Assembly (NCBI RefSeq): GCF_014874065.1 | Contig: NZ_JADBEE010000002.1 | Coordinates: forward strand, 248,001-312,000 | Direction: 5' to 3' | Source: Nesterenkonia halotolerans | GTDB taxonomy: Bacteria > Actinomycetota > Actinomycetes > Actinomycetales > Micrococcaceae | Length of the DNA: 64,000 nucleotides | In this document: positions 13,747-50,883 of the stretch, piece after piece | How the letters are laid out: the number at the start of each line of letters is the position of its first letter | How positions within the stretch are numbered: position 1 is the first letter of the stretch | Made by a program: the position numbers and the translations under genes | The notes under the pieces: generated by a model | Seen by the model: the letters and a program-made list of their open reading frames with translations, nothing else | Databases searched by the model: none | Told to the model about the DNA's origin: nothing

Positions 13747-13811
13747 TCAACTCCGCGGAGGCCGCCCGACCCATTCGCGTTCGGACGCAGCCTCACGATA
13801 AGATGATTTCC

Positions 13812-13899
13812 GGCCCCACGTGCGGTGCCATCCTGCTGAACTCCCCCAGGACCGGAAGGTAGCAAGGGTAAGTGGGCTCTGGCAGGTGCACGTGGGGCT
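13812..13899 (+). ncRNA. ffs: Signal recognition particle RNA, small bacterial type (4.5S)
   Basis: The ends pair (CCCCACGTGC 13814-13823 with GCACGTGGGG 13888-13897). The tip contains the domain IV signature: a CCCCAGGACCGGAAGG hairpin with the GGAA tetraloop, followed by AGCAAGGGTAA. The size of about 88 nt fits the actinobacterial short SRP RNA lacking an Alu domain. A TAAGAT -10 box at 13799-13804 places transcription start at the 5' end. Confidence 0.93.
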
Positions 13900-14024
13900 C
13901 TTAATGTCTTTGGCAGCCTCGGCGGCACCCGGTTGACGCACCGGAGCGCGACCTGCACCACTCGAGCGCAGGATCATTCTGTGGGTGGATGTCCCTGGTC
14001 CTCTGCCGCTTCTACGCTCGAGGC

Positions 14025-39603: not shown

Positions 39604-39759
39604 GATCGTGCCCGCGAGGCCGCCCGCTGGACCGACCCGAGGAACCTCCCCAAGACATCCCGGAACTGATCCCCGAACGGTGAATGAGCACTTTGTGAAA
39701 CGTGGCGGAAAACACCGCTGTGGCACAATGAGGGAAACTGAATCAACGCCACGTCCCCT

Positions 39760-40015
39760 GTGTGGGAGAGTCCGGCAGGTCTCCGAGGAGCGCAGAATCT
39801 CCTCGGAATCACCAAGGTCGGCGCCGAAGGAGCAATATCCTCCCCGGGAACCTCTCAGGCACTCAGTACCGTGCAGGGGTGGCAACTCTGGAAAGCAGCA
39901 CGCCAGGCCGCAGCGCCCGACGAGCTCACCCAAGGTGCAAGCCGGTCTTTCCCGCTCTTCATGCGGGCAGAGACCGGGGAATCTCTCAGGTCCATCACAG
40001 AGCGGGGGAGGAACC
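39760..40015 (+). promoter_or_regulatory. Tandem glycine riboswitch
   Basis: Two glycine aptamers in series upstream of gcvP. Aptamer 1 (about 39762-39894) begins GGGAGAG and contains GCGCCGAAGGAGCAA, then ACCTCTCAGGCA and GGCAACTCTGG. Aptamer 2 (about 39900-40015) contains CACCCAAGGTGCAAGCC, AATCTCTCAGGTCCATCACA and GCGGGGGAGG. These are the family's conserved joining sequences in the right order. The distance to the gcvP start (40047) leaves little room for a separate terminator, so control may be translational; actinobacterial gcv riboswitches usually turn expression on with glycine. The promoter is probably near the CACAAT at 39724. Confidence 0.93.
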
Positions 40016-42988: not shown

Positions 42989-42992
<4 letters not shown>

Positions 42993-44140
42993 GAGAAACA
43001 GCGCTGACCGCTGCGCACGCCGAACTCGGCGCCAGCTTCACCGACTTCGGCGGCTGGAAGATGCCGCTGAAGTACACCTCCGAGCTGGAGGAGCACCATG
43101 CGGTGCGCACCACGGCCGGGCTCTTTGACCTCTCCCACATGGGTGAGATCCGCATCATCGGACCCGAGGCCGCCACCTTCCTGAACACTGCGCTGGTCGG
43201 CAACCTTGCCGCGGTCGCGATCGGCAGGGCGAAGTACTCGCTGATCTGCCGCGAGGACGGCGGGATCCTCGATGACCTGATCGTCTACCGGATCGACGAG
43301 AACGAGTACCTGGTGGTGCCCAACGCCGCCAACCGTGAGGTGGTGGCCGCGGCGCTGACCGATCTGGCAGAGAACGGCCGCGCCGGATCTGCATCGGGCT
43401 ACGACGTCGAGGTCTGGGACGAATCCGAGGGGATCAGCCTGATCGCCGTCCAGGGCCCCGCGGCCGCGGCCATCATCGGCTCCGTGGTCCGCGCCAACGA
43501 GACCTTCCTGGTGGAGGAGCTGCGCTACTACGCGTTCACCACGGTCAGCATCGGCGGGGACGAGATCCTGCTCGCCCGCACCGGATACACCGGTGAGGAC
43601 GGCTTCGAGCTCTTCCTGCCCAACGACAAGGCCGGCGCCCTCTGGCTCGCGCTGCTGGAGGCCGGCTCCGATCACGGGCTGATCCCGTGCGGGCTCGCCT
43701 GCCGGGACTCGCTGCGCCTGGAGGCGGGCATGCCGCTCTACGGCAACGAGCTCACCACGGACCGGATCAGCTTCGAGACCGGACTTCCGGTGGTCTCCTT
43801 CTCCAAGGAGGAGGACTTCGTGGGACGCGCCGCGCTCGAGCAGGCCAAGGCCGAAGGACGCGGCAAGACCTCCGGGCAGCGGCTCGTCGGGCTCCGCGGC
43901 CTGGGCAGGCGCGCCGGGCGCAGCGGCTACCCGGTGATCGCCACCGAGGGCGAGCATTCCGGTGTCACCATCGGTGCCGTGACCTCGGGGCTTCCCAGCC
44001 CGACGCTGGGCTATCCCATCGCGATGGCCTACGTGGACCTCGGCTTCACCGAGCCCGGCACCCGGGTCGACATCGATCTGCGCGGCAAGCCGCAGCCCTT
44101 CGAAGTGGTCGCACTGCCGTTCTACACCCGCAAACGCTGA
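42989..44140 (+). CDS. gcvT: Aminomethyltransferase, glycine cleavage T protein
   Basis: A 383-residue T protein that releases ammonia from the aminomethyl-lipoyl H protein and passes the one-carbon unit to tetrahydrofolate. Motifs: [44 protein letters not shown], and [21 protein letters not shown]. The C-terminal barrel holds GRSGYPV and [18 protein letters not shown]. Start overlaps the gcvP stop by 4 bp. No gcvH is downstream, which is the usual next gene. Confidence 0.96.
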
Positions 44141-44167: not shown

Positions 44168-45628
44168 ATGACCATCAGCATCTTCGACCTCCTGCGGGTG
44201 GGGATCGGACCATCCTCCTCGCACACCGTGGGTCCTATGCGCGCCGCGCGGCGGTTCGTCCTCGAGGAGCTGTGCGAGACCGGCGCCCTGGCGCGCACGG
44301 AGGCGCTGCGCGTCGATCTCTACGGCTCGCTCTCAGCCACCGGACGCGGACATGGCACGTTCACCGCCGTCCTGCTCGGGCTCGAAGCCTGGGATCCGGA
44401 GACGATTCTTCCGGACCAGGTCGAGTCCCGGTTGGAGGCGATGGAGTCTTCCGGCACGGTCCAGCTCGCAGCCCAGCATGACGACGACGGCGGCCGCGAG
44501 CTGCCGCTGCGGGTCGAGGACATCGTGCAGCGCCCGCTGACCGTCCTGGACCGGCACACCAACGCCATGACGCTGACGGCACTGGATGGCCACGGCGAGC
44601 AGGTGGCGAAGGAGACCTACTACTCCATCGGCGGCGGCTTCGTGCTCTCCGAATCAGACGCGGTGGCCTCCGACGCCTCCCTGGGAGTGGCGCTGGCCAA
44701 CGACGACGAGAAGGTGCCCTATCCGTTCACCACGGGCGCCGAGCTCATGGAGCACTGTGCACGCTCCGGGCTGCCGGTCTCACGGATCATGATGGCCAAC
44801 GAGCGTGCGCTGCACGTCACCCGTCACGGCGGGACGGAACAGGACGCGGAGCAGGAGATCGCGGCCAAGGTGTTGCACCTGTGGCAGGTGATGGAGGACT
44901 GCAAGAACTTCGCCCTGGAGCGTGAGGGAAACCTGCCCGGCGGACTCAAGGTGCGCCGTCGTGCGCCTGACTGGCATGCCCGCATGTGGAAGGACGATCC
45001 GAGCCGGACCCACGCCTATTGGCAGGAATGGGTGAACCTGGTCGCGCTCGCGGTCAATGAGGAGAACGCCTCCGGCGGGCGGGTCGTCACCGCGCCCACC
45101 AACGGTGCGGCCGGCATCATCCCCGCCGTGGGCTTCTACGCCACGCACTATGGCCCCGGTGCCAGCTATGCGGGGGAGGAGGACCGCGAGGAGATCGCTG
45201 TGCGCTACCTGCTCACCGCCGCCGCCGTGGGCGTGCTCTATAAGGAGCAGGCGTCCATCTCCGGCGCCGAGGTGGGCTGTCAGGGCGAGGTCGGTTCAGC
45301 CTCCTCGATGGCGGCCGCCGGACTCTGCGAGGTGCTCGGTGGCACTCCGCGACAGGTGGAGAACGCCGCCGAGATCGCCATGGAGCACAACCTCGGCCTG
45401 ACCTGTGACCCGATCGCGGGACTGGTACAGGTGCCGTGCATCGAGCGCAATGCCATGGGCGCGACCAAAGCGGTGAATGCCGCACGGATGGCGCTGATGG
45501 GCGACGGTGATCACCGGGTGTCTCTGGATGAGGTCATCGTGACCATGCGTGAGACCGGCAAGGACATGTCCTCGAAGTATAAGGAGACTGCCCTGGGTGG
45601 GCTCGCGGTCAACGTCGTCGAGTGCTGA
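44168..45628 (+). CDS. sdaA: L-serine ammonia-lyase (iron-sulfur type)
   Basis: A 486-residue single-chain L-serine dehydratase, converting serine to pyruvate and ammonia. The beta domain is N-terminal ([27 protein letters not shown]). The alpha domain carries the cluster cysteines in [43 protein letters not shown] and the ending. It lies 27 nt after gcvT, so it probably belongs to the riboswitch operon: the glycine cleavage system plus SHMT would yield serine, and SdaA carries it to pyruvate. Converges on an acyl-CoA dehydrogenase gene six bases on. Confidence 0.95.
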
Positions 45629-45634
45629 ACAGGC

Positions 45635-46876
45635 TCAGGCGAAGGCGGAGTAACCGGTCAGATCCCGACCGATGATCAGGGTCTGCACGGACTCGGTGCC
45701 CTCGTAGGTGTGGATCGCCTCGATGTCGGCCATGTGGCGGGGCACCTTGTTCTTCAGCAGGATGCCGTTGCCGCCGAGCATGTCGCGGGCCACGTGGGCG
45801 ATCGCGCGGGCCTTGCGAGTGTTGTGATACTTCGCCAGCGAGGCCTGCGGTCCGGTGAGGGTGCCGGCGATGTCGCGTTCGGTCACCTGCCGCACATGCA
45901 TCTGCATGGAGGTCAGCTCCGAGACCATCCAGGTCAGGCGCTCCTGGACGAGCTGGAAGCTGGCCAGCGGGCGGCTGAACTGCTCCCGCTGCTTGGAATA
46001 GCTCAGCGCCGCCTCCACCAGGGCCGAGGCATGGCCGACGGCGGACCAGGCCACTCCCAGCCGGGTCGCGAAGAGCACCTTGGAGGCGTCCTTGAAGTTC
46101 TTCGACCCGGGAAGCACAGCGTGAGCAGGAACTTCGACGTCCTCGTACTGGATCAAGGCCTGGTGGATGGCCCGCAGCGAGGCCTTGCCCTGGATGACCT
46201 CGGCCTTGTAGCCGCGTGTGGCCTGATCCACCAGGAAGCAGCGAACGCTGCCGTCGTGGACACCACCGGAGACCCTGGCCCAGGTGAAGGTGATGCCTCC
46301 GGAGGCCCCGTTGCCGATCCACTTCTTGGCGCCATTGATCACGTAATAGCCCGAGTCCTCGTCACCTACCAGGCGGGCGGTGGTCTCCAGGGACACCGAA
46401 TCGGAGCCGTGGGTCGGTTCGGTCAGCGCGAAGGAACCCAGGGTCTCAGCGGTGGCCAGCTTGGTGAGATGCTCGGCCTTCTGATCGTCGGATCCGAAGT
46501 ACGCCAGCGTGCGCAGCGCCAGTCCGCCCTGGACCGCCAACGCTGTTCCCAGCGAGCCGTCTGCCCGGGAGGTCTCCATGTTCACCAGTCCGGCCGCCAT
46601 GGGGGAGAGCGTCTCCATACCGGCCTCCGTGACGTCGACTCCGTCGGTGAGCAGTCCCAGGCCTCCGGCCCTGCGGACCAGGTCCACCGGGTACTCCGCA
46701 TGCTCCCAGTGCTGGGCCATACGGGTCTCCAGTCCGCTGGAGAACTCGCGGGCGCGCGTCCACCACTGGCGGTCCGCCACGGGCAGGTCCTCGAACACCC
46801 CGTAGTAATCCAGATCGAGCGCGGTGGAGACGTCGTAGATGGGGTCCACGGAGGCATCGGGAGCGTGGTGTGTCAT
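45635..46876 (-). CDS. Acyl-CoA dehydrogenase family protein (glutaryl-CoA dehydrogenase-like)
   Basis: A 413-residue FAD flavoprotein of the acyl-CoA dehydrogenase fold. Features: ALTEPTHGSDSVSLETTARL, KKWIGNGASGGITFTWARV, RLGVAWSAVGHASALVEAALSYSKQREQF, and a catalytic-base region MLGGNGILLKNKVPRHMADIEAIHTYEGTESVQTLIIGRDLTG. The layout resembles glutaryl-CoA dehydrogenase and the actinobacterial 4A-type members. Start at ATG 46876: TAACAT (46889-46884 on the minus strand) stands seven bases upstream, a leaderless promoter; an ATG nine bases earlier overlaps that box. Confidence 0.9.
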   Translation of the reverse strand: MTHHAPDASVDPIYDVSTALDLDYYGVFEDLPVADRQWWTRAREFSSGLETRMAQHWEHAEYPVDLVRRAGGLGLLTDGVDVTEAGMETLSPMAAGLVNMETSRADGSLGTALAVQGGLALRTLAYFGSDDQKAEHLTKLATAETLGSFALTEPTHGSDSVSLETTARLVGDEDSGYYVINGAKKWIGNGASGGITFTWARVSGGVHDGSVRCFLVDQATRGYKAEVIQGKASLRAIHQALIQYEDVEVPAHAVLPGSKNFKDASKVLFATRLGVAWSAVGHASALVEAALSYSKQREQFSRPLASFQLVQERLTWMVSELTSMQMHVRQVTERDIAGTLTGPQASLAKYHNTRKARAIAHVARDMLGGNGILLKNKVPRHMADIEAIHTYEGTESVQTLIIGRDLTGYSAFA

Positions 46877-46889
46877 GGCACACATGTTA

Positions 46890-47087
46890 CTCGATAGTCA
46901 CAAGAAGGTGGAGCTTAGTTGAATCTTCGAACTGTAGACCAAAGTCCACTGGTGTTGCGGAGGGAATCTCTCCGATAATAGAAACTGGACGTGCAACAGT
47001 GGTGCACGATTCAGGGAGAAGCATTGGCCTTGAGGCGCTCCGAATTACGGTGCAAGGGTTCGGAGCAGGGCCTCGGCTGGTGTTAGT
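46890..47087. other. AT-richer intergenic stretch with no supported gene
   Basis: About 200 bp between the acyl-CoA dehydrogenase promoter and the kinase terminator, visibly lower in GC than its flanks. Short frames exist on both strands (a 45-codon minus-strand one ends at 46887) but none has a ribosome-binding site or recognisable sequence. The low GC continues, on and off, to about 48780. Confidence 0.5.
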
Positions 47088-47118
47088 GCTCGGGCGGTGG
47101 GAACGGCACCGCCCGAGC
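47088..47118. terminator. Terminator hairpin of the histidine kinase operon
   Basis: GCTCGGGCGGTG (47088-47099) and CACCGCCCGAGC (47107-47118) are exact complements with a 7-nt loop. It lies 58 bp beyond the kinase stop codon. The T tract is weak on both strands. Confidence 0.65.
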
Positions 47119-47175: not shown

Positions 47176-48354
47176 TCAGCGCGGAAGCCGCAGCTGGATT
47201 CCAGAGACCTGCACGCTCCAGATGCCTTCAGCGGGCGACCCCGCCTCGATCGTTCCGCCATAGGTCGCCGCGCGATCCTCCATGCTGATCAGCCCGGTGC
47301 CGGATGTCGCGTGTTTCGGTGCGGGTGCCTGATTCGCATCGGTTCGGTTCGTCACGGCCAGATCGACAGTGGCCTCTTTGACCTCGAGTTCGATCGTGCA
47401 GTCATTCGTGTCGTGTCCACGGGCTCCGTGTTTGACCACGTTCGTCGTGCACTCCTGCAGGATGCGGTACAGGCAGGCCTCCACTGATTGGGAGATCGAG
47501 CTGATGTCCCCATGCACCGAAGTGTCGACGGTGAAGCCAAGGTCCTGCAGGCGCTCGGTGAAGCGTGCAAGCCCCGATTCCAGGTCCAGCTCCGGGGCGT
47601 CGCCCGGTCCCGAGCCGATGATGTTCTCGCGCTGCAGGACAAGCAGCACGCGGCGCAGGTCATGCAGCGCCGCACTTGCCGATTGGGAGATCTGACTCAG
47701 GGCAGCCGCCCGGGATTCGGGTGTTCCGGTGGCCGCCGCGACCTGAGTCTGCATTGAGATGACCGTGAGGTCGTGGGCGAGGATGTCGTGCAGGTCTCGC
47801 GCGATGGAGCGTCGCTCGCCCGCAAGTGCGTCTTCGTGGGCAGCGCGCAGCTCTACGAGCTCTTGGTCAGCGGACATTCGGGAGACCAGCTGCTTCCTCG
47901 TGGCGTGCCCAGCGAAGTAGCAGAGAAGCATCAGCGCGCCGATCGTAATTCCGAAACCAGCTGCCAACAGTGCGTCGCTCTGCACTAGGCCCGCGTTCAC
48001 CGCGAGGCACAGGGCTAGAAGCGCATACAGACGGCGTACCCACCGTGAGCAGTACATGGCGCTGAGTCCGCAGAAGAGTATGACCAGCAGCATCGTTTCG
48101 AACTGCGAACTCGCAAGGACTCCTAGAACCCCACCGGTCAAGGCCGCCAGTGCCCCCGCGGCTGGGTGCAACCAGAACAGCGCCACCGCGAGAATCCAGA
48201 TCAGATAGCCGAATTGAAGTGTCTCGCTGAGGTACGTGGCGTCCAGGATCAACGCGAGCCCAATATCGGCGCTTATGCCACCGATCGTCGCCAGCGTGAG
48301 GATGGTGAGCACTCTTCGGCTGGGGGCAACATCGCTTGAGAAGGTCACGCTCAA
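47176..48354 (-). CDS. Sensor histidine kinase, NarL/HisKA_3 type
   Basis: A 392-residue kinase. Residues about 14-150 are a compact block of five or six membrane spans with short loops and no large extracytoplasmic domain. The HisKA_3 dimerisation segment is ERRSIARDLHDILAHDLTVIS with the phospho-acceptor His189. The ATPase domain holds RILQECTTNVVKHGARG (N box) and GTGLISMEDRAATYGG (G box). The start is probably TTG 48354, or GTG two codons later; it has only a weak ribosome-binding site and probably depends on the peptide gene 33 bp upstream. A sensor built only of membrane helices fits a small hydrophobic or peptide signal. The divergent regulator at 48782 is the likely partner. Confidence 0.9.
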   Translation of the reverse strand: MSVTFSSDVAPSRRVLTILTLATIGGISADIGLALILDATYLSETLQFGYLIWILAVALFWLHPAAGALAALTGGVLGVLASSQFETMLLVILFCGLSAMYCSRWVRRLYALLALCLAVNAGLVQSDALLAAGFGITIGALMLLCYFAGHATRKQLVSRMSADQELVELRAAHEDALAGERRSIARDLHDILAHDLTVISMQTQVAAATGTPESRAAALSQISQSASAALHDLRRVLLVLQRENIIGSGPGDAPELDLESGLARFTERLQDLGFTVDTSVHGDISSISQSVEACLYRILQECTTNVVKHGARGHDTNDCTIELEVKEATVDLAVTNRTDANQAPAPKHATSGTGLISMEDRAATYGGTIEAGSPAEGIWSVQVSGIQLRLPR

Positions 48355-48387: not shown

Positions 48388-48540
48388 TCAGCAGCCGGAG
48401 GCGTTGGGGAATGCCCGGCAGATGAATGAGCGGAAGAATCCTGCAGTTTCCAGGTTTGAAAGATCAAGGAAAGTGATAACAGTAGTAAGAACGAGGGCGG
48501 AAACGATGGCGATACGGTAAGCAAACAATGCGAGTGACAT
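48388..48540 (-). CDS. Small one-span peptide with C-terminal Cys-X8-Cys, candidate signal peptide precursor
   Basis: A 50-residue frame with ATG at 48540, AAAGGA at a good distance on the minus strand, and a consensus-like promoter 18 bp further up. MSLALFAYRIAIV begins a hydrophobic helix (about residues 3-25). A polar/aromatic tail follows (DLSNLETAGFFRSFI) and the last ten residues are CRAFPNASGC, with Cys41 and Cys50 able to form a small disulfide ring. It is upstream of, and on the same strand as, the histidine kinase gene. I know no homologue. The gene order peptide-kinase resembles Agr/Com-type pheromone loci, but no processing protease or transporter is adjacent. It could instead be a regulatory small membrane protein for the kinase. 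Confidence 0.6.
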   Translation of the reverse strand: MSLALFAYRIAIVSALVLTTVITFLDLSNLETAGFFRSFICRAFPNASGC

Positions 48541-48557
48541 TTTTTGTTCCTTTCGGG

Positions 48558-48586
48558 GGTATACCTGCTGATGTTGAACGTGTAAA
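48558..48586 (-). promoter_or_regulatory. Promoter of the peptide-kinase operon
   Basis: On the minus strand TTTACA (48586-48581), 17 nt, TATACC (48563-48558), the best sigma-70-like promoter in the window. Transcription would start near 48551, giving a leader of about ten bases that contains the AAAGGA site. Confidence 0.75.
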
Positions 48587-48600
48587 ATTAGAATAAGGTG

Positions 48601-48635
48601 TGCCTAGATTCAGGCATAGTGGACTTAAGTGCCTA
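48601..48635. promoter_or_regulatory. Candidate regulator sites upstream of the LuxR-type gene
   Basis: TGCCT-AGATTC-AGGCA (48601-48616) is an inverted repeat, and GTGCCTA recurs at 48629. They lie between the divergent peptide and regulator promoters in markedly AT-rich DNA, where a phosphorylated NarL-type regulator would be expected to bind. TATACA at 48639-48644 may be a -10 box for the regulator gene. Confidence 0.45.
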
Positions 48636-48727
48636 ATTTATACAGAACCGCTCAGTTTCAGTGTTGTTTCCCTCTGGAGGAGTCGAGCATCCCTGGAGCT
48701 CGGAGAGTTCGGATAAAGTGAGACTCC

Positions 48728-48754
48728 GCACCGGGTGTCGTTGCACCGGGTGTC
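48728..48754. repeat. Direct repeat GCACCGGGTGTC x2
   Basis: Two exact 12-bp copies at 48728-48739 and 48743-48754 (15-bp period), in the leader of the response regulator gene 30-55 bp before its ATG. Either a DNA site or an RNA leader element. Confidence 0.6.
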
Positions 48755-48781
48755 ACAGGCCGAGGAAGAACAGGTTCAGCC

Positions 48782-49477
48782 ATGCTCCGTCTCGTCGTTG
48801 CAGACGACCACCCGATCATGCGGGCAGCTCTCCGCGCCTACGTAGACTCCGCCCCAGACATGGTCTGTGTGGGTGAAGCGCAGAATGGGCTTGAGGTGAT
48901 CGAGCGGGTCCGTGAGGAGATGCCTGATGTGGTGATCATGGACCTCAAGATGCCGGAGATGGGTGGCGTCGAGGCCACCGCCGAGGTCATGGCGATCGCC
49001 CCGAAGACCTCCGTGCTGGCGGTCACCACGTTCAGCTCTGAAGGGCATGCGCTGCAGGCATTGAACGCCGGGGCCAAGGGTTACATCGTCAAGGACGCGA
49101 CGGCGGATCAGGTGCTCGAGGCTATTCGTCAGGTTCACGGCAGTTCCGTGCCGATCTCACCTGATGTGGCGCGACGGCTTGAGTTCAATGCCGTCAATGA
49201 GGCCGAGGAATTCTCGGTAGCGCTGGCGGGCTCGGACTATCTGCCGCGGGTCCCGCCGCGTGAGACGGAGGTTCTGACCCTATTGGCGCGCGGGTTCAGC
49301 AACCGGGAGATCGCCACGCGCATGGTGTTGACCGAAGGCGCGGTCAAGGCGCATCTCGGGCGTCTGTGTGCCCGTTTCGGGGTGCGGGATCGCGTGCAGC
49401 TGCTGATCCGCGCGACCCAGCTGGGTCTGATCGAGCCTCAGCTCGAGGACGTCGCCCCGGAGGGCGACGGCAGGTAG
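48782..49477 (+). CDS. Response regulator, NarL/LuxR family
   Basis: A 231-residue regulator. The receiver domain (1-120) begins LRLVVADDHPIMRAAL, has the acceptor Asp54 in VVIMDLKMPEMGG, then the conserved Thr and Lys in VTTFSSEGHALQALNAGAKGYIVKDAT. The C-terminal LuxR HTH (about 155-215) has PRETEVLTLLARGFSNREIATRMVLTEGAVKAHLGRLCARFGV. Partner of the kinase transcribed divergently from the other side of a 430-bp region that also encodes the small peptide. The ATG at 48782 has only a weak ribosome-binding site. Confidence 0.93.
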   Translation: MLRLVVADDHPIMRAALRAYVDSAPDMVCVGEAQNGLEVIERVREEMPDVVIMDLKMPEMGGVEATAEVMAIAPKTSVLAVTTFSSEGHALQALNAGAKGYIVKDATADQVLEAIRQVHGSSVPISPDVARRLEFNAVNEAEEFSVALAGSDYLPRVPPRETEVLTLLARGFSNREIATRMVLTEGAVKAHLGRLCARFGVRDRVQLLIRATQLGLIEPQLEDVAPEGDGR

Positions 49478-49523: not shown

Positions 49524-50348
49524 TCAGCGGCGCAAGCCGCCCTGCCAGAGCGCGTCGAACGGGGTGTTCCCGGCCACGCGCTGGTGGATGCCCGCGGTGA
49601 CGAAGGCCTTGGCGTGACGCGCGGCCTCACGTGGCGAGGAGCCCTTGGCGAGCTCGGCTGTGACGGCGGCGGCCAATGAGCAGCCGGCACCGGAGACGGC
49701 GTGCTCGCCGATCTTCGGTGCGGTGAGCACCTCCATGCCCTCGGCATCGACGAAGACATCGACGGCGTCTGCTCCTGCCAGACGGATCCCGCCCTTGGCG
49801 AGCACGGCGGCCCCGGAGATGCGATGGATCTCTGCGGCCGCCGCCTGGAGGTCCTCCAGCGACTCGACCTTCATGCCGGAGAGCTGCTCGGTCTCGAAGT
49901 GATTCGGCGTCACGAAAGTCGCCAGCGGAAGCAGCTCCGCCTTCAGCGCATTGTCGGTGTCCTGGGCGTGACCGGGCTCCTGACCCTTGCAGATCAACAC
50001 GGGGTCCAGCACCAGGTGCTTCGGCTTTCGAGCTGAGACCGCGGAGGCCACGGTGGAGATGGTGGCGGGCGAGCCCATCATCCCGAGTTTGACCGCGTCC
50101 AGTGACTCGGGCCCGTAGTTTCCAAAGATGGCCTCGAGCTGGTCATTGATCACCTGGGTCTCCACGGGAACGAACCGGTGGTTCCAGTTGTCCTCGGGAT
50201 TGAAGGACACGATGCAGGTCAGCGCCACCATTCCGAAGGTTCCCAGCTCCTGGAAGGTCTTCAGATCGGCCTGAGCTCCGGCGCCGCCGGTGGCCTCGGA
50301 GCCTGCAATGGTCAGAGTCATTGCCGGATGTGCAGTGGTCTCAGTCAT
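49524..50348 (-). CDS. pdxK: Pyridoxal/pyridoxamine kinase of the PdxK/ThiD family
   Basis: A 274-residue ribokinase-fold kinase. LTIAGSEATGGAGAQADLKTFQELGTFGMVALT and NWNHRFVPVETQVINDQLEAIF closely follow the Bacillus pyridoxine kinase, a ThiD paralogue. LDPVLICKG and the anion-hole/catalytic GAGCSLAAAVTAELAKG with its Cys are present. It phosphorylates B6 vitamers; hydroxymethylpyrimidine activity cannot be excluded. ATG 50348 overlaps the stop of the upstream membrane gene by 8 bp. Converges on the response regulator. Confidence 0.9.
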   Translation of the reverse strand: MTETTAHPAMTLTIAGSEATGGAGAQADLKTFQELGTFGMVALTCIVSFNPEDNWNHRFVPVETQVINDQLEAIFGNYGPESLDAVKLGMMGSPATISTVASAVSARKPKHLVLDPVLICKGQEPGHAQDTDNALKAELLPLATFVTPNHFETEQLSGMKVESLEDLQAAAAEIHRISGAAVLAKGGIRLAGADAVDVFVDAEGMEVLTAPKIGEHAVSGAGCSLAAAVTAELAKGSSPREAARHAKAFVTAGIHQRVAGNTPFDALWQGGLRR

Positions 50349-50883
50349 GCTCAGGGTCCTTTGTCTGTGGGTCCTTGGTGGTCTGTGATGCATCGAGCCC
50401 GGGCGTCGTGGCTTCCCGCTCGGGGTCATCCACCCGGGTCAGGGGCTGAGCCATCCAGCGGCCGAGCCCCAGCAGGATGCCGGCGGGAAAGCCGATGAGT
50501 GGGATGAGCATGGGCACCAGTCCGCCCGCGCCCACGACGAGCACGACAGGGCCATAGAGCAGACCCACGAGGACGTAGCCCAGGATGTGCACCGTGGGGC
50601 GCGGCTGATGTCGGAAGAGCCAGGTGACCAGCAGTGTCCCCGGGATGCCGACGACGACGGCGGCAGCGCCGATCAGCGGGATCAGTGGCGCGAGGAATCC
50701 CTCGCCGTCGAGTCCCGGCATGAGACTCAGCGCGAGGAGCAGACCTCCCATCACCGCAGTGGGGATCAGCCAGGAGACTATCCACCCAGCGAAGCCCAGC
50801 CGAAGGACTGGTCGGGGCTCCGTGCTGGCGCGCTGGGACGGCCGCCTGCGGCGCGTCGTCTTCTCTGGTGCGGGAGTGGTCAT
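50341..50883 (-). CDS. Hypothetical four-span membrane protein
   Basis: A 180-residue protein with a basic N-terminal tail (RRRRPSQRAS). About four spans follow (FAGWIVSWLIPTAVMGGLLLAL; PLIPLIGAAAVVVGIPGTLLVTW; ILGYVLVGLLYGPVVLVV; LVPMLIPLIGFPAGILLGL), with an acidic/Lys C-terminal tail. Unrecognised. TAGAAT (50896-50891, minus strand) lies seven bases before the ATG, a leaderless promoter. It overlaps pdxK and may be cotranscribed with it; a vitamin B6 transport role is only a guess. Confidence 0.75.
   Translation of the reverse strand: MTTPAPEKTTRRRRPSQRASTEPRPVLRLGFAGWIVSWLIPTAVMGGLLLALSLMPGLDGEGFLAPLIPLIGAAAVVVGIPGTLLVTWLFRHQPRPTVHILGYVLVGLLYGPVVLVVGAGGLVPMLIPLIGFPAGILLGLGRWMAQPLTRVDDPEREATTPGLDASQTTKDPQTKDPEHD

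Follow-up and report, generated by a model that had tools for sequence, protein, structure and literature searches.

The locus described here lies in a window of 64,000 nucleotides from the 2.97 Mb genome of Nesterenkonia halotolerans (genome G000; positions 248,001 to 312,000 of contig NZ_JADBEE010000002.1), and coordinates are given in the window unless stated otherwise. It comprises a histidine kinase gene, a divergent response regulator gene, a short peptide gene in the gap between them and a structured small RNA beyond the end of the kinase, together with two promoters that carry a putative common operator box. The features are listed below, with the basis of each assignment in brackets.

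46934..46950, plus strand: putative operator box GTAGACCAAAGTCCACT of the small-RNA promoter (motif search and promoter alignment)
46974..46979, plus strand: likely -10 hexamer GATAAT of the small RNA (promoter alignment)
46984..47118, plus strand: new structured small RNA with four helices, both ends predicted (covariation, covariance model, folding)
47088..47118, plus strand: strong, terminator-like hairpin at the 3' end of the small RNA, followed by CTCTCTGTGTC instead of a T run (alignment)
47176..48354, minus strand: NarL-type histidine kinase with six membrane helices and no outer domain (Pfam, hydropathy, AlphaFold2)
48388..48540, minus strand: peptide gene, 50 aa, one hydrophobic helix and a C-terminal tail with Cys41 and Cys50 (conservation, selection, hydropathy)
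48547..48553, minus strand: ribosome-binding site AAAGGAA of the peptide gene (letters present; orthologs similar)
48587..48592, minus strand: likely -10 hexamer TCTAAT of the peptide-kinase operon (TATAAT, TCTAAG or TATAAC in orthologs)
48601..48616, no strand assigned: palindrome TGCCTGAATCTAGGCA between box and -10 hexamer of the peptide promoter (alignment)
48617..48630, minus strand: putative operator box ACTTAAGTCCACTA of the peptide promoter (motif search and promoter alignment)
48782..49477, plus strand: LuxR/NarL-type response regulator, divergent (Pfam)

An earlier note on this DNA had described a membrane-only kinase beside a divergent LuxR-type regulator, and both genes were confirmed by Pfam, with a HisKA_3 domain in the former and Response_reg and GerE domains in the latter. 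Hydropathy and an AlphaFold2 model of moderate confidence (mean pLDDT 74.7, pTM 0.43, alignment of 13 sequences) agree with the membrane-only description, giving six helices before the catalytic part and no outer domain. The helices, placed by AlphaFold2 and hydrophobic by Kyte-Doolittle, span residues 13-37, 44-62, 64-80, 84-101, 104-123 and 128 onward, and the modelled loops between them are at most 6 residues long. The peptide frame ends 33 nt upstream of the kinase frame. Pfam assigns the flanking frames to kinase, regulator, acyl-CoA dehydrogenase and phosphomethylpyrimidine-kinase types; neither a protease nor an exporter, whose absence the note had held against its own proposal, nor a modifying enzyme was seen at the locus.

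Comparisons were based on a genus set (g1) of 30 Nesterenkonia genomes. Some kinase match occurs in 28 of them; nine kinases form a tight set with 73-100% identity, and 15 further kinases, 34-39% identical, apparently stand at the corresponding locus. The gap between kinase and regulator was read in the loci of these 9 close and 15 distant kinases (L002-L025), and the regulator adjoins the kinase in 24/24 (in L025 in part, at the edge of the locus).

The peptide frame with Cys41 and Cys50 pointed out in the note was confirmed from the sequence, and its AAAGGA site is borne out by AAAGGAA. Conservation beside orthologous kinases holds for one clade, with an intact frame of 50-51 codons and a ribosome site before the kinase in 9/9 close loci (nine of the 30 genomes), but fails for the other, where no look-alike was seen by eye in the gap of the 15 distant-kinase loci and no profile match occurs. 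A profile search of 395 genomes of the family returned the nine peptides and one chance match, beyond which no peptide was found in the 365 genomes of related genera. A protein search of 5.8 billion sequences gave eight matches, all from contigs of 1-3 kb, of which one is the peptide of G011 and seven are further variants. As two of these eight relatives are named 'hypothetical protein', the frame is only partly absent from ordinary gene calls, as had been claimed. Six of the seven named records with the peptide are from Nesterenkonia and the seventh is a chance match; one database copy comes from N. lutea, and the peptide is also present in Nesterenkonia sp. Act20, a strain with published proteome data (PMC8965627). 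No relatives were found in Pfam, NCBIfam, PHROGs or PDB. Matches outside the genus in L043 (G182; a frame of 29 aa, 18 bits at E 0.0085) and L050 (a stretch of 31 residues within another frame) are ascribed to chance, and a plasmid match (43%, E 0.8) lying under an annotated pycC gene was ignored.

Among the 50 codons of the nine frames, 29 first, 19 second and 43 third positions are variable, and codon-by-codon dN/dS values range from 0.06 to 0.44 in 34 of 36 pairs, the other two being saturated. By these measures the frame is under purifying selection, and on the codon-position pattern together with the low dN/dS it is very likely a translated gene. The N-terminal part and the tail are equally constrained (pN 0.20 and 0.21). 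Across 16 peptide variants the residues M1, F6, Y8, A11, E31, F35, C41, F44, P45 and C50 are invariant, position 9 is Q and not R in six, and all 16 carry a small residue (T, S, A or V) at -3 and G or S at -1 relative to F35. The AlphaFold2 model of the peptide is a single helix running through residue 43.

Co-divergence of peptide and kinase was measured from pairwise distances over nine related loci, a small sample, with a label permutation that leaves shared ancestry in. Residues 35-50 of the peptide correlate with residues 1-150 of the kinase at a raw r of 0.89 and, once the catalytic part is controlled for, a partial r of 0.86 (0 of 10,000 permutations), whereas the partial value of the same tail with the catalytic part is 0.26. 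Residues 1-34 show partial values of 0.33 with the membrane domain of the kinase and 0.59 with the catalytic part. The correlation between tail and membrane domain ranges from 0.79 to 0.89 when single loci are left out and is 0.86 without both near-duplicates. Divided into segments, the peptide follows the membrane domain at 0.72 (residues 41-50), 0.45 (35-40), 0.44 (18-34; p 0.008) and 0.05 (1-17), and the kinase block that tracks the tail most closely is 39-76 (raw 0.87). As tail and N-terminus belong to one and the same peptide, the difference between them serves as a useful internal control, and the co-divergence of residues 35-50 with the membrane domain supports the suggestion in the note that the C-terminal tail would be what the kinase reads.

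The promoter TTTACA-17-TATACC that had been assigned to the peptide gene is present letter for letter, but TATACC occurs at that place in only three of nine orthologs (L002, L003 and L005; by eye) and as a -10 hexamer would place the transcript start inside the ribosome site of the peptide gene. A -10-like TNTAAN 30 nt past a conserved box is kept in 9/9 peptide promoters. A consensus promoter scan found neither TTTACA-17-TATACC nor the box-linked promoter. The box is present in 9/9 peptide promoters and 24/24 RNA promoters. A -10-like hexamer (at least 4/6) follows AAGT/TAGT at exactly 30 nt in all nine peptide promoters and at 26-31 nt in 22 of the 24 RNA promoters, with 3/6 in L020 and L024; most of these hexamers are singly no better than shuffles, and it is therefore their recurring position that counts. 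The box would thereby sit about 40-45 bp upstream of the predicted starts of peptide operon and RNA. Activators in contact with RNA polymerase commonly bind at this distance.

In the peptide clade the right half AAGTCYACT is common to both promoters while the left halves differ, and TAGT replaces AAGT in three of the nine peptide boxes. Exact sites of the motif ACNNAAGTCYACTR in G000 are two, at the peptide (contig positions 296617-296630) and at the RNA (294938-294951), with no third. Exactly those two sites are likewise found in G011, G019, G023 and G026, and those two plus one more in G018; there are no exact matches in G004 and G022 and one in G024, the boxes being visible by eye nonetheless. 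Over the 30 genomes ACNNAAGTCYACTR has 19 sites (13 at the peptide-kinase-RNA locus, 6 elsewhere) against 19 in the reversed control. Both box motifs were written from the very sites they find, and at a chance rate of about 0.6 sites per genome in the reversed control the evidence from ACNNAAGTCYACTR is therefore one of place, not of count. The motif TAGACNAAAGTNGACTR has one site each in 14 of the 16 RNA-bearing peptide-less genomes (no exact match in G006 and G021), 14/14 of them directly before the RNA, and 0 sites in the reversed control over 30 genomes. Since TAGACNAAAGTNGACTR is found solely before the RNA in the peptide-less clade, the small RNA appears to be the main target of the regulator, to which the peptide clade would have added the peptide operon; further targets with a looser box may exist.

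An earlier, looser box motif, allowed one mismatch, had given three sites in G000 (one at the RNA) against six in the control. In L008 both arms of the peptide-promoter palindrome change together (TGTCC/GGACA). An inverted repeat of variable sequence seemed, by eye, to lie generally between box and -10 hexamer, but this was rejected on comparison with shuffles (mean arm 4.0 against 3.3, 33 promoters), and only the peptide-promoter palindrome is retained as a feature. The box of the RNA also lies 49 bp before the start of the acyl-CoA dehydrogenase gene (45635-46885, minus strand), in the interval 46886-46950, and this gene is a possible third box target, in the peptide clade only.

The small RNA sits in a conserved non-coding stretch between the end of the kinase and the acyl-CoA dehydrogenase gene, and the succession of operator box, conserved stretch and strong end hairpin is found in 24/24 loci (in L021 the hairpin was recognized by eye). 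The alignment of 24 copies shows four helices with 32 pairs, of which 19 have double changes that preserve pairing, and all copies carry a GGTGCAA loop. Pairing is possible in 96.9% of the cells, compared with 84.4% in shuffled alignments and 35-40% when the partners are slid, and none of 500 shuffles attains even one of the five measures used. The copy in the window folds 5.85 standard deviations below shuffles (z -5.85), and the nine close copies differ in length by 1-2 nt, which speaks against a coding sequence. With a covariance model, 25 of the 30 genus genomes show one copy each; the 25th copy (G021), left out of model building, scores 100.7 bits. With an E value of 0.001 no copy was found in 365 other genomes of the family. 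Among 297 genomes of the order there are 12 matches outside the genus (E up to 0.01), none above 31.2 bits, whereas the copies within the genus score 91-138, and at least two of the 12 cover solely the 3' hairpin part. Rfam 15 gave no match at the locus at gathering score, the best weak one being sX11, which overlaps the RNA stretch on the same strand (23.4 bits, cut-off 70, E 0.11).

Five genomes lack the RNA. Four of these are without a regulator match at 1e-40; of the four, one genome is only 65% and another only 79% complete, and in G016 a fetched locus contains masked bases. G028 (82% complete) has no RNA match although one small contig carries both a kinase and a regulator of 46% identity, which makes it a case against strict coupling. 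The gap of this diverged kinase/regulator pair (L029) contains a box-like ACTTTAGTCTAGAG. In G021 regulator gene and small RNA are found side by side (L099 4813-6148) and no kinase was found in 8 kb. The sequence TTGCACC, the complement of the loop, was considered as a target; it stands before the regulator gene in just 4 of the 24 loci (L002, L003, L014 and L020), and therefore no RNA target is claimed. The small RNA and the common box, both new beyond the earlier note, are the strongest evidence for one circuit.

Kinase, regulator and RNA occur without the peptide in 15 loci and with the peptide in nine. In L025 and the nine loci with the peptide, RNA and kinase are antiparallel; in the other 14 they run in the same direction. 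Neighbouring genes suggest that the loci of the two clades correspond: relatives of the frames 49524-50429 and 50341-50883 stand beside regulator and RNA in G021, and the end of a 50341-50883-type frame stands beside several loci of the other clade (both by eye).

We consider it quite possible, at slightly below an even chance, that the locus is a positive-feedback (autoinducing) peptide-signalling circuit with an agr-like layout and NarL/LuxR-type parts. Peptide and kinase would be made from one operon, and the N-terminal half of the peptide would insert in the membrane. The C-terminal 16 residues (F35-C50) would reach the outer face and are probably released. This tail, in which a Cys41-Cys50 disulfide or some other linkage probably forms a ring, would be sensed by the six-helix membrane domain of the kinase, which would then phosphorylate the LuxR-type regulator. 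The regulator would bind the box ~40-45 bp before the two starts and activate both targets: (i) the peptide-kinase operon, which would be autoinduction, and (ii) the small RNA of roughly 135-150 nt, presumably the older output, which would act on mRNAs, perhaps via its invariant GGUGCAA loop.

For release of the tail, the small residues before F35 would suit the general signal peptidase; signal peptidase I needs small residues at -3 and -1 of its cleavage site. Against the circuit stand the lack of an exporter, protease or modifying enzyme at the locus and of an AgrB match in the genome, as well as the Q9 variants (6/16), because of which the helix has no fixed positive charge in front of it, as a signal peptide usually would. 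Further points against it are the modelled helix through residue 43 and the N-terminal part being as constrained as the tail. The missing protease and exporter, the objection of the earlier note, are a weak argument, because the exit route of ComX, whose signal lies near the C-terminus of its precursor, is likewise not known (PMC4008528).

A serious alternative, though somewhat improbable on balance, is that the peptide is a small membrane protein tethered in the producing cell that sets the activity of the kinase as a feedback brake or redox sensor, in the manner of MgrB on PhoQ, with a loop that is private to the cell and perhaps negative. The size of the peptide (50 aa), its single hydrophobic helix, its two invariant cysteines and the box before its gene fit this reading, as do the constrained N-terminal half, the Q9 variants without charge before the helix and the fact that no processing gene was seen at the locus. 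A tethered tail touching the kinase would also fit the co-divergence as well as a released one. Helix packing, however, predicts co-divergence of the membrane part of the peptide, and residues 1-17 (r 0.05) and 18-34 (0.44, p 0.008) fall well short of the tail (0.86); here it would be the tail rather than the helix that tracks the kinase. The mgrB gene is not in the operon of the PhoQ kinase, and the large sensor domain that PhoQ carries on the outside has no counterpart in the model of this kinase. MgrB itself is described as a protein of 47 aa with one helix, whose outer cysteines C28 and C39 are both important; it belongs to the regulon of its own two-component system, acts on the kinase and restrains the system (PMC8404706). 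The likeness is one of layout: in its size and its pair of cysteines the peptide comes closest to MgrB, with the outer position of the tail here a prediction.

An antimicrobial or toxin-like role of the peptide, with its operon under the system and a kinase responding to damage or to the peptide itself, is unlikely. Antimicrobial activity does occur among short hydrophobic peptides with cysteines, and the box is common to the promoters of peptide and small RNA, but no immunity or export gene was seen at the locus, the tail varies in step with the membrane domain of the kinase, and no family in Pfam, NCBIfam or PHROGs and none among solved structures was found for it. Very improbable is a leader peptide without a role of its own as a protein, whose translation controls the downstream kinase: the frame does end 33 nt before the kinase frame, but its amino-acid conservation extends along the whole length at low dN/dS, and the invariant positions do not form a run of a single amino acid.

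The autoinducing circuit proposed here resembles in layout staphylococcal agr, which is described as comprising a peptide, a membrane kinase and a regulator with two regulator-driven promoters, P2 for the signalling operon and P3 for a regulatory RNA (PMC5789755). Both have a peptide before a membrane-only kinase, and here a putative box with the same right half stands before the peptide operon and before the RNA. In contrast to agr, the kinase is of the HisKA_3 type, the regulator has Response_reg and GerE domains and no LytTR regulator is involved, the peptide ends at its second cysteine without an acidic tail, the regulator gene is divergent and outside the peptide-kinase operon, and the RNA has about 140 nt, against about 500 nt for RNAIII. 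AgrB (PF04647) had 0 matches in the genome of the window; of 14 control genomes three gave matches, none over the cut-off, so that the search had no strong positive.

The Bacillus ComQXPA system is described with a precursor gene of 52-73 residues before a multi-span PF07730 kinase and a PF00072/PF00196 regulator (PMC4008528). The multi-span HisKA_3 kinase with a LuxR-type regulator is found here as well, and the gene types are nearer to ComX-ComP-ComA. Differences are the lack of tryptophan in 16/16 peptide variants, the lack of ComQ or another isoprenyl transferase among the flanking frames (Pfam), the divergent regulator as opposed to four genes on one strand, and the adjacent small RNA with its box. 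By the defining parts tested, the locus belongs neither to agr nor to ComQXPA.

The locus thus looks like a quorum-sensing or feedback circuit in some Nesterenkonia. As a tentative extension, about which we have more doubt than confidence, the agr layout may have been reached independently in actinobacteria, with an autoinduced cysteine-ring peptide, a membrane-sensing kinase, a regulatory RNA as the main output, NarL/LuxR-type parts and general secretion replacing a dedicated protease-exporter, the peptide gene and a second box having been added to an older module of kinase, regulator and small RNA. The peptide-less and peptide-bearing loci may represent the states before and after this addition, and with both in one genus the origin of a peptide-sensing circuit would be directly testable. 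With a single regulator, a single RNA and two boxed promoters, in bacteria that can be cultured, the locus is a compact system, and it adds a new small-RNA family. Among the literature matches listed, titles and abstract beginnings contained no treatment of the peptide, the RNA or Nesterenkonia peptide signalling, and a term search of a review of quorum sensing in Actinobacteria did not return the genus name Nesterenkonia.

Elsewhere in the window, a small signal recognition particle RNA (RF00169, 67.7 bits) was found at 13809-13905 (plus strand) and a glycine riboswitch (RF00504, 49.3 bits) at 39753-39881 (plus strand). Beyond the riboswitch lie frames that we take to be glycine-cleavage T-protein-like (42989-44140) and serine-dehydratase-like (44168-45628).
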